A stretch of 64,000 bases of DNA from Chloropicon primus. Lineage: Eukaryota; Chlorophyta; Chloropicophyceae; Chloropicales; Chloropicaceae. Within the stretch, counting starts at the first letter, position 1. Each line of letters starts with the position of its first letter. The translations under genes were made by a program, and so were the position numbers. This document shows positions 44,683-62,060 of this stretch, piece by piece. The notes below the pieces were generated by a model that worked only from the letters and a program-made list of their open reading frames with translations, did not search any database and had not been told where the DNA came from. The stretch covers positions 124,001-188,000 of the forward strand of contig CP060768.1 of the NCBI GenBank assembly GCA_023205875.1, read 5' to 3'.

Positions 44683-44795
44683 CCCAACCACCTCTCTCCT
44701 CTCTCCTCTCCGGAGCCGCCGACCGACCCTCTCCTCTCCTCTCCTCTGATCCCAAGGAAAAGAAAAATTCATCCAATCCTCCAACCAAGATCAAG

Positions 44796-45605
44796 CCAGG
44801 ATGGAGGGCAGAGGAGGGACTTCAAACCATGTTTAGGAACGATTAAAAGGCGTTTGCCGGAAAGAAACTTGGTTCAATCGATACAACAGGTCTCTTGAGC
44901 TTGAGATCGAACCCAACATTGCCTTGTCTCCTTGGCATCTTCTGGAAACAGCACCAGCACCAGCATCGAGAACACCAGCCAGGATTGAGGGCAGAGGAGG
45001 GACTTCAAACCAAGTTTAGGAACGATTAAAAGGCGTTTACCGGAAAGAAACTTGGTTCAATCGATACAACAGGTCTCTTGAGCTTGAGATCGAACCCAAC
45101 ATTGCCTTGTCTCCTTGGCATCTTCTGGAAACAGCACCAGCACCAGCATCGAGAACACCAGCCAGGATTGAGGGCAGAGGAGGGACTTCAAACCAAGTTT
45201 AGGAACGATTAAAAGGCGTTTACCGGAAAGAAACTTGGTTCAATCGATACAACAGGTCTCTTGAGCTTGAGATCGAACTCAACATTGCCTTGTCTCCTTG
45301 GCATCTTCTGGAAACAGCACCAGCACCAGCATCGAGAACACCAGCCAGGATTGAGGGCAGAGGAGGGACTTCAAACCAAGTTTAGGAACGATTAAAAGGC
45401 GTTTGCCGGAAAGAAACTTGGTTCAATCGATACAACAGGTCTCTTGAGCTTGAGATCGAACCCAACATTGCCTTGTCTCCTTGGCATCTTCTGGAAACAG
45501 CACCAGCACCAGCATCGAGAACACCAGCCAGGATTGAGGGCAGAGGAGGGACTTCAAACCAAGTTTAGGAACGATTAAAAGGCGTTTACCGGAAAGAAAC
45601 TCGGT
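44796..45605. repeat. 183-bp satellite, four full copies and one partial
   Basis: Unit boundaries (the word CCAGGAT) recur at 44796, 44979, 45162, 45345 and 45528, exactly 183 bp each. Copies differ by single bases (GGCGTTTGCC/GGCGTTTACC, CGAACCC/CGAACTC). The fifth copy ends at about 45605, ten bases before the start codon of the DUF952 gene. The array fills the whole 930-bp gap between TIM21 and that gene. No long ORF runs through it; 183 is 61 codons but stops occur. Confidence 0.95.
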
Positions 45606-45614
45606 TCCTTCGTC

Positions 45615-55389: not shown

Positions 55390-56599
55390 ATGTTGCTAGT
55401 GGCCTCCTCGAGAAGCTCATCGATAACCAGCAGGATTATTCAGACGGCGGGAGGTCGCTTTTGTGGGACGACGCCGGCGGCGAGGGGAACGCCGAACCAG
55501 CAGCGCTTGAGCTCCTTGAGCTCCTCCTCGAGCAAGCTCGTTCTTGGGAGGGACAGAGAGGCCCGCTCGGCTTGGACAAGAAGGGTGGTCCCCCGTGCGG
55601 AGTTCGACGGGAGCAGACGCGTGGGAGAGCCGGCGGGGGACGATGAGGACGACTCGCTCGTGCAGGTGAGAAACGAGAATCGAAACCGGCCCCCCTATCC
55701 GATGACTCATCCACCAAATCGATCATCCGCTCACACGCGCGCGCTTCGCTCTTATCCCCCAACCCTCCAAACGACAACAACAACAACAACAACAGGTGAC
55801 GGTAGAGCGCGTCGTCAAGTCCGACAAGAATGAGGCGAGCGTGCTTTACCTGTCCCTCCTGGACAGGAGCGGCTCCATCATGCCCGTCTACGTCGGGGAG
55901 GCGGAGAGCGTGGCCCTGGACATGGAGCTCTCCAACAAGAGGACCACGGCGAGGCCCATCATGTACGACCTCTTCAAGTCCTTCGTGGAAACTTCGGGCT
56001 ACGAGCTGAGCCACGTGATCATCGACGACCTCAAGTCGAAGACGTACCACGCGACGTGCTACTTCAGCGACCTGGACAAGCCGGCCGGCGTGACCATCAA
56101 GCTCGACAGCAGGCCGAGCGACGCCCTGAACCTCGCCGTGAGGTTCAACAAGCCCGTGTACGTCACCAAGGTGGTCCTGGAGAAGGCGAGGGACTTCCTG
56201 ATCCCCTCGGACAAGGTCGTTCACTTCAAGGCGGAGGGCCCGCACTTCAGGGAAGTGATGGACAACAACCGCATGAGCCGCACGCGCCCCCTGGGCAAGG
56301 CCGGGAGGGAGGAGATCGAAGCGAGCATCAGGAGGCTTCTGATGCACTACGTCGACCCGGACATCGTGGAGCTCCAGGCCAGGCTCCAGGTCGCCGTGAG
56401 CAAGGAGCTCTACGAGGACGCTGCCAAGATCAGGGACGAGATGGGGGAGGCCATGAGCAAGGACAGGATGGCCTCGGTCTGCGTGGCCATGGAGTCCGCG
56501 GTGAACGACAAGCGCTTCGAGGAGGCCGCCGTCCTGAGGAACACTTTCCTGTTCCTCAGGGAGCAGAGGGACAAGGAGGATAAGAGAAAGATCGCCTAG
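55390..56599 (+). CDS. plastid bifunctional-nuclease-domain (BFN/DUF151) protein with UVR motif
   Basis: Exons 55390-55665 and 55796-56599, with a 130-bp intron (GTGAGA...CAG preceded by CAA repeats); 359 residues. Exon 1 is a plastid transit peptide (MLLVASSRSSSITSRIIQTA). Exon 2 has the DUF151 domain: IMPVYVGEAESVALDMELSN, VIIDDLKSKTYHATCYF and LDSRPSDALNLAVRF. A linker and two helical UvrB/C-type motifs follow (LQARLQVAVSKELYEDAAKI; MESAVNDKRFEEAAVLRN). This matches plant BBD proteins, which have nuclease activity and regulate stress responses. Confidence 0.92.
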
Positions 56600-56718: not shown

Positions 56719-57165
56719 TCACAGACAGACAGAGAGAGGGGGGGGGGAGCGCAAGCCACTTCCTTCCTCCTCCTCCTCCTTCCCTGGGCCCATTCGAAGA
56801 CAGTTGGGGTGATCGTTGATGACAGCCCTCAGAACAAGCGTCCACTCATCGTCCCCATCGAGACCGGAGTCGAGCTCAATATTACCGAACTTCAACAGCA
56901 CACGAAGGCAGTCGTAGCTGCAACGGTCCACGCTTTCGTGGGCGGCTTCCAACGCATACGAGACGCCAACCTTGACCATCTTCTCAAGATGGTCGGGCAT
57001 GTCAAACATTGCCAAAATGCGTAAGGACGAATCCCATCCGCCTATGTATGTGCGTGAGCGGGCATCAAATGAGGGTGAGAGAGCGAGTGCGACCCATTCC
57101 TCAAGCAACTCACGAATAACACGCCCCCTCCAGGGCTTCCAAACACCAGAAGAGGGGGGTGTCAT
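56719..57165 (-). CDS. ankyrin-like ORF overlapping the end of the repeat-nuclease gene
   Basis: 148 residues. Its ATG (57165) overlaps the TGA of the upstream minus-strand gene in an ATGA arrangement, unusual for a nuclear gene. About residues 60-125 (KVGVSYALEAAHESVDRCSY, then DCLRVLLKFGNIELDSG and LRAVINDHPNCLRMG) resemble two degenerate ankyrin repeats. It could be a separate gene, a spliced 3' part of the neighbour, or a remnant. A plus-strand frame covers the same stretch. Confidence 0.4.
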   Translation of the reverse strand: MTPPSSGVWKPWRGRVIRELLEEWVALALSPSFDARSRTYIGGWDSSLRILAMFDMPDHLEKMVKVGVSYALEAAHESVDRCSYDCLRVLLKFGNIELDSGLDGDDEWTLVLRAVINDHPNCLRMGPGKEEEEEGSGLRSPPPLSVCL

Positions 57166-60100
57166 GCATCAATCATGGCAATCATGGCCTCGTGTTTCCT
57201 TTTCTTGTTCCGCAGCGAAACAAGCAGCTGGTGCGCTGCGCCCTCGTCGCTGCACGCCTTCAGCTTGGCGGCGAGCGTGCCGATCATGTTCATCAACTTC
57301 GCGTTCTCCTTGTTTAACACGGTCCGCAACTCTTTGACGGGATCCAATCCCAGGACCGACAGAGCGTCCCCGCATGCGACTACCGCGTCCACAAACCCAG
57401 GCTTCAACATGCGCGACGCGAAGGCGTTCGAACCCGCTATCAGCACGCCGCCTTTGCCGACCATCTGCTCGAGCTCTTCAAGCACGGCGTAAAGTGCCTC
57501 GGGATCGTCGAACTTCGCCGCAACGCTATTGCAAACAAAGGTCTGGAGATTCTTGATACCGAAGCGCGTCCTCAGCGTGTCGAGCACGGCGTAGAGCGCG
57601 TCGGGATCGTCGAACTTCGCCGCAACGCTGTTATTCACAAAGGTGATACCGAAGCGCGTCCTCAAAGTGTCCAGCACGGCGTAGAGCGCTGCGGGATCGT
57701 CAAACCTCGCCGCAACGCCTCCTGAAACAAAGGTTTGGAGACTCTTGATGCCAAAGCGCGTCCTCAAAGTGTCCAGCACGGCGTAGAGCGCTGCGGGATC
57801 GTCAAACCTCGCCGCAACGCTGTCTGAAACAAAGGTTTGGAGACTCTTGATGCCGAAGCGCGTCCTCAAAGTGTCGAGCACGGCGTAGAGCGCGTCGGGA
57901 TCGTCAAACCTCGCCGCAACGCCTCCTGAAACAAAGGTTTGGAGACTCTTGATGCCAAAGCGCGTCCTCAAAGTGTCCAGCACGGCGTAGAGCGCGTCGG
58001 GATCGTCAAACCTCGCCGCAACGCTGTCTGAAACAAAGGTCTGGAGACTCTTGATGCCGAAGCGCGTCCTCAAAGTGTCGAGCACGGCGTAGAGCGCTGC
58101 GGGATCGTCAAACCTCGCCGCAACGCTGTCTGAAACAAAGGTCTGGAGACTCTTGATACCGAAGCGCGTCCTCAAAGTGTCGAGCACGGCGTAGAGCGCG
58201 TCGGGATCGTCAAACTTCGCCGCAACGCCATCACAAACGAAGGTCTGGAGACTCTTGATACCGAAGCGCGTCCTCAGCGTGTCGAGCACGGCGTAGAGCG
58301 CGTCGGGATCGTCAAACTTTGCCGCAACGCCACCACAAACGAAGGTCTGGAGACTCTTGATACCGAAGCGCGTCCTCAGCGTGTCGAGCACGGCGTAGAG
58401 CGCGTCGGGATCGTCAGACCTCGCCGCAACGCCACCACAAACGAAGGTCTGGAGACTCTTGATACCGAAGCGCGTCCTCAGCGTGTCGAGCACGGCGTAG
58501 AGCGCGTCGGGATCGTCAAACCTCGCCGCAACGCCACCACAAACGAAGGTCTGGAGACTCTTGATACCGAAGCGCGTCCTCAGCGTGTCGAGCACGGCGT
58601 AGAGCGCGTCGGGATCGTCAAACTTCGCCGCAACGCCATCACAAACGAAGGTCTGGAGACTCTTGATACCGAAGCGCGTCCTCAGCGTGTCGAGCACGGC
58701 GTAGAGCGCGTCGGGATCGTCAAACTTCGCCGCAACGCCATCACAAACGAAGGTCTGGAGACTCTTGATGCCGAAGCGCGTCCTCAAAGTGTTGAGCACG
58801 GCGTAGAGCGCGTCGGGATCGTCAAACTTCGCCGCAACGCTGTCACAAACGAAGGTCTGGAGACTCTTGATGCCGAAGCGCGTCCTCAGCGTGTCGAGCA
58901 CGGCGTAGAGCGCGTCGGGATCGTCAAACTTCGCCGCAACGCCATCACAAACGAAGGTCTGGAGACTCTTGATACCGAAGCGCGTCCTCAGCGTGTCGAG
59001 CACGGCGTAGAGCGCGTCGGGATCGTCAAACTTCGCCGCAACGCCTCCTGAAACAAAGGTTTGGAGACTCTTGATGCCGAAGCGCGTCCTCAAAGTGTCG
59101 AGCACGGCGTAGAGCGCTGCGGGATCGTCAAACCTCGCCGCAACGCTGTCTGAAACAAAGGTTTGGAGACTCTTGATGCCGAAGCGCGTCCTCAAAGTGT
59201 CGAGCACGGCGTAGAGCGCTGCGGGATCGTCAAACCTCGCCGCAACGCTGTCTGAAACAAAGGTTTGGAGACTCTTGATGCCGAAGCGCGTCCTCAAAGT
59301 GTCGAGCACGGCGTAGAGCGCTGCGGGATCGTCAAACCTCGCCGCAACGCTGTCTGAAACAAAGGTTTGGAGACTCTTGATGCCGAAGCGCGTCCTCAAA
59401 GTGTCGAGCACGGCGTAGAGCGCTGCGGGATCGTCAAACCTCGCCGCAACGCTGTCTGAAACAAAGGTTTGGAGACTCTTGATGCCGAAGCGCGTCCTCA
59501 AAGTGTCGAGCACGGCGTAGAGCGCGTCGGGATCGTCAAACCTCGCCGCAACGCTGTCTGAAACAAAGGTCTGGAGACTCTTGATGCCGAAGCGCGTCTT
59601 GAGCGCCGTGAGGATGTCAAAGAGTTTCTCCGGATCGTCGAACTTTGCAGCGACGCCGCCGCAGACAAACGTGCCCAAGTTGGTTATGCCGAACTTGGGA
59701 TCTTGCAACCCTTTGATGCTTTTCTCGAAGGCTCCCGTCAGGACACGCGAAGGCACTCCGGGGGTGGCCATGAGCTTTCGCGCCAGGTCGAGATCACCAC
59801 CCACGAGCGTCGCGACGCGCTGCTCGGCGGCTTCAAACTCCTTGCTCATGCGCGCCCACACGTCCGCGGCGGCATCGTTGGCGGCGGCGTTGTCATGGTT
59901 GCTGCTCGGGCACGCCTTGGTCGCTGCAGCACCGCCTTGATGGATGCGCTGCGCGACGGCGGTCACAGCAGCTGACGCGGCAACGTTCGGTAATTGCGAC
60001 TCGGTGACGACGACGAGCACGTTGTCCCCCCACTGCGAAAGCTGCTCGAAGTGTGCGGCGCCCACGCGCAAGCGGACCACGAACGCGTCAGGGAACATTT

Positions 60101-60446
60101 CGCGGAGCTTGGTCGTCTTGCGTTGGTCGCGTCCCACGTCGGAGTCGCCGTGCGTGAAGCCCGGGTCGTACTCGAACAGCACTTCCGTGCCATTCGTGAG
60201 CTTGAAGAACGCATCGGTGTTGTGGTGGGTCTTGCCTTCCGTCAGGTGCTTCGCGAGCGAGCGCCCGGTCACGCCCTGCTCAAGCAAGCCGTTCTCAAAC
60301 AACAGCTGCGCCACATGCGCGACGTGACGTGTCTCGGCCTTGGACGCGCCGATCGGAGACGGCACGTCGTAGTCGTCGACACGGCGGCGTTTGCTCGGCG
60401 GCGCGTCCGACGCCATGACGCGCACCTCGAACGCGACCCTTTCCAT
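57162..60446 (-). CDS. Vsr/DUF559-like nuclease fused to 22 TALE-like 34-residue repeats
   Basis: Intronless, 1094 residues. Residues 15-25 are a nuclear-localisation motif (PPSKRRRVDD). Residues 40-150 contain THHNTDAFFKLTNGTEVLFE, YDPGFTHGDSDVGRDQRKTT and REMFPDAFVVRLRV: this fits the D...ExD...H...D..K...vvRiR pattern of Vsr-like, DUF559-type PD-(D/E)XK nucleases, with D78, E92 and D94 as candidate metal ligands. Residues 252-995 are 22 tandem repeats (21 of 34 residues, one of 30), consensus FGIKSLQTFV..xVAA.FDD then P.ALYAVLDTLRTR. Variation concentrates at repeat positions 11-13 (SDS, SGG, CDG, CDS, CGG, CNS), 17 (R/K) and 22 (D/A). The last 99 residues are helical and basic. Repeat length and helix-turn-helix pattern recall TAL effectors. 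DNA binding is a hypothesis. Confidence 0.75.
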   Translation of the reverse strand: MERVAFEVRVMASDAPPSKRRRVDDYDVPSPIGASKAETRHVAHVAQLLFENGLLEQGVTGRSLAKHLTEGKTHHNTDAFFKLTNGTEVLFEYDPGFTHGDSDVGRDQRKTTKLREMFPDAFVVRLRVGAAHFEQLSQWGDNVLVVVTESQLPNVAASAAVTAVAQRIHQGGAAATKACPSSNHDNAAANDAAADVWARMSKEFEAAEQRVATLVGGDLDLARKLMATPGVPSRVLTGAFEKSIKGLQDPKFGITNLGTFVCGGVAAKFDDPEKLFDILTALKTRFGIKSLQTFVSDSVAARFDDPDALYAVLDTLRTRFGIKSLQTFVSDSVAARFDDPAALYAVLDTLRTRFGIKSLQTFVSDSVAARFDDPAALYAVLDTLRTRFGIKSLQTFVSDSVAARFDDPAALYAVLDTLRTRFGIKSLQTFVSDSVAARFDDPAALYAVLDTLRTRFGIKSLQTFVSGGVAAKFDDPDALYAVLDTLRTRFGIKSLQTFVCDGVAAKFDDPDALYAVLDTLRTRFGIKSLQTFVCDSVAAKFDDPDALYAVLNTLRTRFGIKSLQTFVCDGVAAKFDDPDALYAVLDTLRTRFGIKSLQTFVCDGVAAKFDDPDALYAVLDTLRTRFGIKSLQTFVCGGVAARFDDPDALYAVLDTLRTRFGIKSLQTFVCGGVAARSDDPDALYAVLDTLRTRFGIKSLQTFVCGGVAAKFDDPDALYAVLDTLRTRFGIKSLQTFVCDGVAAKFDDPDALYAVLDTLRTRFGIKSLQTFVSDSVAARFDDPAALYAVLDTLRTRFGIKSLQTFVSDSVAARFDDPDALYAVLDTLRTRFGIKSLQTFVSGGVAARFDDPDALYAVLDTLRTRFGIKSLQTFVSDSVAARFDDPAALYAVLDTLRTRFGIKSLQTFVSGGVAARFDDPAALYAVLDTLRTRFGITFVNNSVAAKFDDPDALYAVLDTLRTRFGIKNLQTFVCNSVAAKFDDPEALYAVLEELEQMVGKGGVLIAGSNAFASRMLKPGFVDAVVACGDALSVLGLDPVKELRTVLNKENAKLMNMIGTLAAKLKACSDEGAAHQLLVSLRNKKRKHEAMIAMIDA
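57462..59693. repeat. in-frame 102-bp coding repeat array
   Basis: About 22 units of 102 bp (one short unit of 90 bp near 57580-57670). Two nucleotide-level subfamilies are visible. One reads GTTTGGAGACTCTTGATGCC with CTCAAAGTG; the other reads GTCTGGAGACTCTTGATACC with CTCAGCGTG. The second kind fills the middle of the array and the first kind flanks it, which points to block duplications and unequal exchange. Confidence 0.9.
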
Positions 60447-60890: not shown

Positions 60891-62060
60891 ATGGAGATGA
60901 AGGAGGTTGTTGAGGCAGGGGAAGTGCGGCTGGAGATCGCGGAGGGGGAGGGGACGAGCTCCTCGTGGGAGGCCGCGAGTGATTCGGGTTCCGATTTCGA
61001 GGTCGGTTCGGACGAGGAGGAGGCGTCGAGGCACGGGGAGGACACCTCGCCCTGCTCCGTGCTGCCCTCGACGAGCGGAGGCGGCGGTTGTCGCTCGTCG
61101 TCGGGCTGCTTCGGCACCCCGGAGATCGTGTACTGGGGGGGCGGGCAGGACGGCAAGGTGCCCGAGGACCCGGGAGAGGACGAGCCCTACTGCAGGATCT
61201 GCTTCGACGGCCCTCACGAGGACGGCCCCTTGTTCCGCGCTTGCGACTGCAAGGGGTCGGTCGCTTACGTCCACTACGAGTGCCTGTCGAGGTGGGCCGT
61301 GGACGCCCAGAGGGCGGAGTGCGAGCTGTGCCACTCCAGCTTCAGGCTCCCGGAGGGGATGAAGCCCTTCATCCCGAAGACGCCCATTCTGCACAAGGCC
61401 TGCACGATCGCCGCGGAGTCCATGTCGAGGAGCACGGCCCTCTTCAACCTCCTGCCTTCCGGCTCCGGGGCCGTTACATCCAACAGCGCCATCGTGTACC
61501 TGAGCGGCTACGGGCACCAGAGGGGCTGCACCGAGCTCGGGATCTGCCGCTTTCCCACGGCGTTCCCTCGGGGCATCCTGGGCGAGGCCATGACGCCGGA
61601 GGAGTGGAAGCGCGTGATCCGGCGCATCAACAGAGTCAGCGGGAAGATGATCAACATGGGCTGGCGCTTCGTCATCTTCATCCTGTGCCTGTTCCTGAAC
61701 ATCTGCCTGATCGTCGTGCTGTCCTTCATCGACCACGCCGCGGTCATACCGTTCATGTTCGCGGTCATCCTCATCCAGCTGCTTCCCGCGGTCCTCTTCG
61801 CGTTCATCACCAACTACCATAACGCCAGGGTCCACGCGCAGCTCACGAGGCTCTGCTCCGACCTCTCCGAGGAGTTCGCGCCCTCGGGCGTCACGTTCGG
61901 GTTCCACTGCATCACCGCGGACCTAAGGCATAGGGGAAGGCTTTGGAACCCCTACGCCGTGCACCCCGTCGGGGAGCCCAAAGTCATCAAGTTCCTCACC
62001 GTGGAGATCGGCACCGGCATCACGTTCGGATCCGCCGGGATCTCCCGCCGCGAGGGTTGA
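60891..62060 (+). CDS. MARCH-type RING-CH membrane E3 ubiquitin ligase
   Basis: Intronless, 389 residues, ATG at 60891. The N-terminus is acidic and Ser-rich. The RING-CH (C4HC3) finger is YCRICFDGPHEDGPLFRACD, then CKGSVAYVHYECLSRW and CELCHSSF. Two membrane spans lie at about residues 260-310 (WRFVIFILCLFLNICLIVVL and IPFMFAVILIQLLPAVLFAF). MARCH ligases ubiquitinate membrane proteins for turnover in endosomes or ER. The C-terminal cytosolic tail has no recognised motif. Confidence 0.92.
   Translation: MEMKEVVEAGEVRLEIAEGEGTSSSWEAASDSGSDFEVGSDEEEASRHGEDTSPCSVLPSTSGGGGCRSSSGCFGTPEIVYWGGGQDGKVPEDPGEDEPYCRICFDGPHEDGPLFRACDCKGSVAYVHYECLSRWAVDAQRAECELCHSSFRLPEGMKPFIPKTPILHKACTIAAESMSRSTALFNLLPSGSGAVTSNSAIVYLSGYGHQRGCTELGICRFPTAFPRGILGEAMTPEEWKRVIRRINRVSGKMINMGWRFVIFILCLFLNICLIVVLSFIDHAAVIPFMFAVILIQLLPAVLFAFITNYHNARVHAQLTRLCSDLSEEFAPSGVTFGFHCITADLRHRGRLWNPYAVHPVGEPKVIKFLTVEIGTGITFGSAGISRREG

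Follow-up and report, generated by a model that had tools for sequence, protein, structure and literature searches.

The 64,000-nucleotide stretch of Chloropicon primus DNA analyzed here (the window, C15:124001-188000 of a genome assembly with 20 contigs and 17,584,162 bases) contains an open reading frame (ORF) at 57162..60446 (-), which encodes a nuclease-like N-terminal domain followed by an array of 22 repeats. The array is constrained coding sequence, and its framework is kept by strong purifying selection. As the best overall explanation, we tentatively propose from sequence and modeling that the protein is a nuclear helical-repeat solenoid holding a degenerate PD-(D/E)XK nuclease on its substrate, most likely nucleic acid. 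The gene would be specific to the lineage of C. primus, the sole eukaryotic genome compared, and its product probably a nuclear protein. The N-terminal domain would be a degenerate nuclease of the EDxHD/Vsr/DUF559 kind, and the 20-22 helical-hairpin repeats would form the solenoid, contacting the substrate through a patch of repeat positions 11-13, 17, and 22. Units of 102 bp would be gained, lost, and mixed in the array, with the framework residues kept. The ORF, its array, the codon-level constraint, the copies, and their breakpoints are observed directly, whereas the nuclease fold, the nuclear location, the solenoid, and the ligand are inferred.

Overall architecture of the protein

The 1094-residue ORF comprises a nuclear localization signal (NLS)-like motif, the nuclease-like domain, a linker, the 22 repeats, and a basic C-terminal tail. 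The basic motif PPSKRRRVDD (residues 16-25; 60372..60401 (-)) is one that we take to be an NLS, the label being ours rather than the prediction of a tool. The probable PD-(D/E)XK (EDxHD/Vsr/DUF559-like) domain spans residues 36-150 (59997..60341 (-)) and was delimited by alignment, profiles, and a low-confidence structure model. It carries D78, E92, D94, H99, D107, K110, and R125. The linker (residues 151-251; 59694..59996 (-)) is predicted to be mostly helical in the same model. The array (57462..59693 (-)), defined by Tandem Repeats Finder and unit counts, has 21 units of 34 residues and one, unit 21, of 30 residues; its variable positions are 11-13, 17, and 22. The tail (residues 996-1094; 57165..57461 (-)) has a computed net charge of +5. 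A preliminary description of this DNA had reported the 1094-residue ORF with a nuclear-localization motif, the repeat counts, and D78, E92, D94, K110, and R125; all of these are present as described, and H99 and D107 also belong to the pattern.

The repeat framework is conserved at the codon level

Tandem Repeats Finder detects the array at 57644-59598 with a period of 102, 19.2 copies, and 96% matches. The genome has three copies of the gene, on contigs C9, C14, and C15 (the window), and together they contain 65 repeat units (20, 23, and 22, respectively). For codon analysis 53 of the 65 units were used, with 24 distinct units, and 12 were dropped as first, last, short, frame-broken, or divergent. 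At the 29 framework codons the nonsynonymous difference (pN) is 0.0037 against a synonymous difference (pS) of 0.165, giving a pN/pS of about 0.02. At the five variable codons (11-13, 17, and 22), which were chosen after data inspection, pN is 0.246 and pS 0.43; for codons 11-13 alone the values are 0.236 and 0.52. The units are few and related, and their counts are therefore not independent events. Because of the difference between the two codon classes, we consider the framework to be kept by selection and change at the five variable positions to be approximately neutral. The latter fits relaxed or diversifying change and falls short of demonstrating positive selection. A faster change at positions 11-13 than at synonymous sites, which the preliminary description had proposed as a check, was not borne out in these within-genome copies: the pN of 0.236 is close to, and not clearly above, the pS of 0.165 at the 29 other codons, and pS at 11-13 themselves is 0.52.

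Variation is concentrated at positions 11-13, 17, and 22, as had been noticed earlier, but it is not confined to them, with minor variation at position 18 (F in 50 units, S in 3) and position 29 (D in 50, N in 3). Position 17 is basic in all 53 units (R in 35, K in 18). At position 12, Asp and Gly are each encoded by two codons, in the pairs GAC/GGA and GAT/GGT. Over its 744 residues the array has a net charge of -10 and an isoelectric point (pI) of 5.0, and is thus acidic.

Duplication history of the three gene copies

The recently duplicated segment of the window (56792..60435 (-); C15:180792-184435) is common to C9 and C14. It begins at 60435 and leaves the first 11 nucleotides of the ORF outside, and therefore the inherited start is probably Met11, with its ATG at 60416. 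The C9 copy (DNA match 569489-572242) has an open frame with 20 repeats, and the C14 copy has a broken frame with 23 unit starts. The segment common to C9 and C14 measures about 5.0 kb (C9:568595-573590) and takes in 0.9 kb of upstream sequence as well as a 292-residue ankyrin-repeat ORF. The window copy shares only C9:569489-572928, from 19 nucleotides before the inherited ATG to inside the ankyrin ORF. It is a very recent partial duplicate that lacks the shared upstream region, and it may not be expressed.

Apart from one G, missing in C14 from a run of six, the three copies do not differ in their shared sequence beyond the array. Inside the array, each pair of copies shows 24-70 aligned substitutions along with 128-308 gapped bases (MAFFT alignment, in which the register is ambiguous). 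Either array turnover is far faster than point mutation, or the differences are partly assembly error. According to its published description (PMC12301720), Nanopore reads were assembled and polished with Illumina data, and the result was compared visually with contigs built from short reads. We judge that polishing performs poorly in repeats of 102 bp and that the absent G resembles a homopolymer error; for these reasons we do not call the C14 copy a pseudogene.

The C9 insert continues directly into 1.2 kb (C9:573587-574792, L038) that are 99.75% identical to C19:105332-106538 (L173), and four bases at the junction, TCCG, are common to both templates. Neither outer flank of the window copy occurs in full a second time: the 492-bp flank has no match but itself, and for the 525-bp flank there are seven additional short matches (43-92 bp, 74-91% identity). 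A transposon would be expected to have identical ends and a target-site duplication in every copy; the ends of the C15 copy differ from those of C9 and C14, and the end parts of the segment were found nowhere else in the genome. Because of the composite C9-C19 junction, the differing C15 ends, and the flanks lacking a second full copy, the copies appear to have arisen by patchwork, templated duplication, not by a transposon or homing event. Short repeats of 3-4 bp (TGA and CCAC) adjoin the segments on C9 and C14, and we take them as chance. An apparent gene interrupted at C9 by a homing element or transposon was rejected, as the 436-residue joined frame is an artefact whose downstream half is shared with C19; when the join is placed at the further end, the frame stops six residues past the junction. 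One may guess that the C14 locus is the source of the window copy, because a 133-residue open frame crosses the end of the segment there. Since frames of 233 and 183 residues arise when the C14 flanks are joined, the 133-residue frame is no real test of a C14 origin.

Downstream of the repeat gene the window retains the truncated start of the ankyrin-repeat ORF (56719..57165 (-)), of which the shared part ends at 56792; on C9 and C14 this ORF is 292 residues long. In all three copies (the window; L003:4567-5445; L002:208-1086) its ATG shares bases with the stop codon of the upstream repeat gene (ATGA). The two ORFs possibly form a two-cistron transcript, which would be unusual for a nuclear gene; polycistronic transcripts have been described in green algae (PMC11291117). 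The ankyrin ORF bears on an explanation other than nucleic-acid binding, in which the solenoid binds a partner protein, a protein of a pathogen, or the neighboring ankyrin protein, and the head is an effector or a fold remnant. Such a role would suit the co-duplication of the ankyrin ORF, with its ATGA overlap on C9 and C14, the acidic array, and repeats that have no match to any nucleic-acid repeat family in the Pfam and PDB searches, but the NLS-like motif, the kept catalytic-type residues, and the invariably basic position 17 are better suited to work on nucleic acid. We regard protein binding as rather unlikely, though well worth keeping in view.

The N-terminal domain resembles PD-(D/E)XK nucleases

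From its sequence and predicted structure, the head domain is probably a nuclease of the PD-(D/E)XK superfamily, of the EDxHD/Vsr/DUF559 kind. Nucleases of this kind have an EYDG-x-Y/F-W-H pattern, which guided the choice of the comparison family: at least 120 viral stretches were collected by this pattern, and the family was thus chosen by the motif itself. A full profile was built from 81 cores (86 of 120 stretches were long enough and were then made non-redundant), and a subset profile from 29 cores, which were left after 7 of 36 chosen by eye proved too short. With the 29-core profile the domain ranks 1st of 5001, above all 5000 shuffles; hhalign with this profile also puts it above 300 of 300 shuffles, at a probability of only 49.6%. 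Both profiles rank the domain first against 726 background ORFs of C. primus. In the seven-row alignment A3, D78, E92, Y93, D94, H99, and D107 are invariant, the six other rows having been picked by the EYDG-H pattern. BLASTP aligns the domain with the nuclease end of the viral protein L117, in which DUF4379 repeats precede the nuclease domain, with 28% identity over 112 residues and an E value of 0.002 for this single comparison. In the model, the secondary-structure elements of the domain follow the order H H E E H E H E, which fits the fold, with a predicted local distance difference test (pLDDT) score under 50 there. The earlier assignment to a Vsr/DUF559-like nuclease is therefore plausible as to the motif kept in A3 and the order of elements in this low-confidence model, and found no counterpart among Pfam and PDB families.

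Several results weigh against a nuclease held by a nucleic-acid-binding solenoid. With the 81-core profile one of 2000 shuffles scores above the domain, which thereby comes second in that set, and the hhalign probability is only 17.7%. As the family had been chosen by the motif, a motif-masked profile test was run: without the EYD-H motif the domain falls to ranks 579 and 671 of 5001, which is not significant, and shuffling only the sequence outside the motif gives ranks of 4 and 10 of 5001. The fit to the nuclease pattern is thus weak and not independent of the choice of comparison family. No family was found for the domain in Pfam, PHROGs, NCBIfam, or PADLOC at E values up to 10, and PDB gave one chance sequence with an E value of 0.77. 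The structure model (mean pLDDT 54.9) contains no confident solenoid or domain. An acidic array is unlike most nucleic-acid solenoids and speaks against nucleic-acid binding. Finally, sequence errors may account for the broken frame of C14 and for some of the differences between the arrays.

Some of these results would be expected of a repeat-rich orphan that has its nuclease motif by chance, the array being the structural or disordered product of a minisatellite without enzyme activity. The non-significant masked-motif test, the failure to find a curated family, the low-confidence model, and an array that differs between otherwise identical copies all agree with it, but the low pN/pS ratio at the 29 framework codons (about 0.02) shows that a protein framework is kept, and five motif positions are kept in A3; we consider this explanation improbable.

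Other hits of the domain did not hold. A match in phage PH357 (E value of 2) lies in a protein without ExD and is due to chance, and at a 12-bit match on C10 of the C. primus genome no nuclease-like ORF was seen. Virus scans with the domain, the repeats, the repeat profile A1, and A3 gave 5, 3, 27, and 292 pattern stretches, respectively, none of which was confirmed. Phages were searched with the domain only, and plasmids with the repeats only.

Database searches and predicted structure of the repeats

Two repeats searched against Pfam gave six families at E values up to 10, none above its cut-off and none a TALE, PPR, or TPR model; the best was DUF3482 (E value of 0.0085, 16 bits against a cut-off of 29.2). 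PPR, TPR, and OPR were without a match in this search, where the presence of an OPR model in Pfam is unchecked. In PDB, at E values up to 10, three units matched three sequences and profile A1 matched six, of which none was a TALE and none convincing. Searches of PHROGs and NCBIfam with the repeats yielded no family above cut-off, and no TALE, PPR, or TPR among the weaker matches. Matches of the whole ORF to Pfam (DUF4113, YAcAr, and seven others) were discarded as weak repeat matches added up. No prokaryotic or viral relative of the repeats was found, including among plasmids: three plasmid matches (E values of 2-6) were chance, and the one confirmed Cellulomonas match among 238 pattern stretches is a short piece of an unrelated enzyme ORF, which we read as phosphoglucomutase-like.

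The structure model covers residues 12-454 and is of low confidence. In repeats 1-5 it shows one clear helix each, at approximately positions 21-33. In the first half of the repeat, a full helix at positions 6-17 is seen in repeat 1, and it is broken or partly missing in repeats 2-5. Foldseek with this model returned 142 matches at E values up to 10, none to PDB at E values up to 0.001, and no TALE is named among the best 50 of the 142; these matches were not used as evidence.

These searches also concern the idea that the protein binds RNA through helical repeats of the PPR/OPR/RAP type, its parts standing in reversed order. The 34-residue unit is near the lengths of PPR (35), TPR (34), and OPR (38-40) units (PMC8635915), and RAP proteins (PMC8190603) pair helical repeats with a restriction-endonuclease-like fold and are expanded in Chlorophyta. 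The RAP model PF08373 was absent from the protein and from all three gene copies, but a genome scan with it matched two other loci, on C11 and C12. There is no PPR or TPR model among the six Pfam families, the head is N-terminal, and the protein has an NLS-like motif and, by our own reading, not an organelle peptide. A protein of this type is doubtful, about as improbable as the orphan.

Other features of the window

Two ORFs border the duplicated segment. The one at 55796-56599 (+), which adjoins it, has a bifunctional-nuclease domain (PF02577) and UVR motifs, and the one at 60891-62060 (+), on the opposite side, has a RING-variant domain (PF12906). The window contains two more tandem arrays, one at 44794-45607 with a 183-bp unit (4.4 copies, 98% matches) and one at the window edge (1-250) with an 83-bp unit (three copies, 98% matches).

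Relation to known systems

The architecture had first been likened to a natural TALE-nuclease. TAL effectors, TALE-likes, and STAR proteins (PMC11417379) resemble the present array in having 34-residue repeats with few variable positions, 12-13 by number among them. The TALE repeat length of 33-35 residues applies to 21 of the 22 window units (34 residues). Unlike TALE repeats, the 53 analyzed units of the three copies vary also at positions 11, 17, and 22, with two or three states per variable position, and the array is acidic. Natural TALEs are not known to carry a nuclease head. With an acidic array and no TALE model or chain among the Pfam or PDB matches of the repeats, the proposed link to a natural TALE-nuclease was not upheld, the sequence tests against TALE being negative.

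A similar logic is already known twice, by analogy. RAP/OPR/HPR proteins have the helical repeats and the restriction-endonuclease-like fold that are proposed for the window protein; their repeats are N-terminal and the proteins largely organellar (PMC8190603), whereas the window protein has an N-terminal head and an NLS-like motif. The EDxHD/Vsr homing endonucleases have a large outgroup with repeated CapR, DUF4379, or DUF723 modules, and the likeness lies in an ExD...H nuclease beside several module copies thought to add sequence specificity (PMC12350094). The viral comparison proteins L117 and L064 have both DUF4379 and the ExD...H pattern. In that outgroup, however, modules of about 60 residues precede a C-terminal nuclease in phages and bacteria, whereas here an N-terminal head is joined to 34-residue repeats in an alga, and the window domain is too distant for a Pfam match. 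DUF559 (PF04480) has the same ExD...H pattern, and two of the four viral comparison proteins (L043 and L102) pass its cut-off and match the related MTES_1575 model below the cut-off of that model. The window domain was not matched by PF04480 at E values up to 10, nor was any match found elsewhere in the C. primus genome.

The view that this is not a described family holds in part: no family was found for either part of the protein, but the pairing of helical repeats with a restriction-endonuclease-like fold is known in green algae from RAP/OPR proteins (PMC8190603). Our literature search covered titles and the beginnings of abstracts, with most subscription journals and supplements outside its scope, and found no description of this protein. 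The main text of PMC12301720 contains no word starting with "nuclease", and the main texts of two TALE-inspired repeat screens, whose supplements were outside scope, make no mention of Chloropicon.

Guidance of the nuclease by DNA recognition is possible. A bolder version of the proposal is a long shot: a nuclear, self-made eukaryotic nuclease aimed by a modular helical-repeat code that has no relation to those of TALE, PPR, or PUF. The target would be read by positions 11-13, 17, and 22 of each repeat, and the array would be rewritten by unit exchange. Were the array to read nucleic acid, the alga would have a natural nuclease guided by repeats, one that might also yield a new programmable scaffold for binding. 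Should it bind protein instead, it would still represent a helical-repeat family absent from the libraries searched, with simple, countable variation and a possible nuclease domain, in a host lineage of abundant ocean picophytoplankton.

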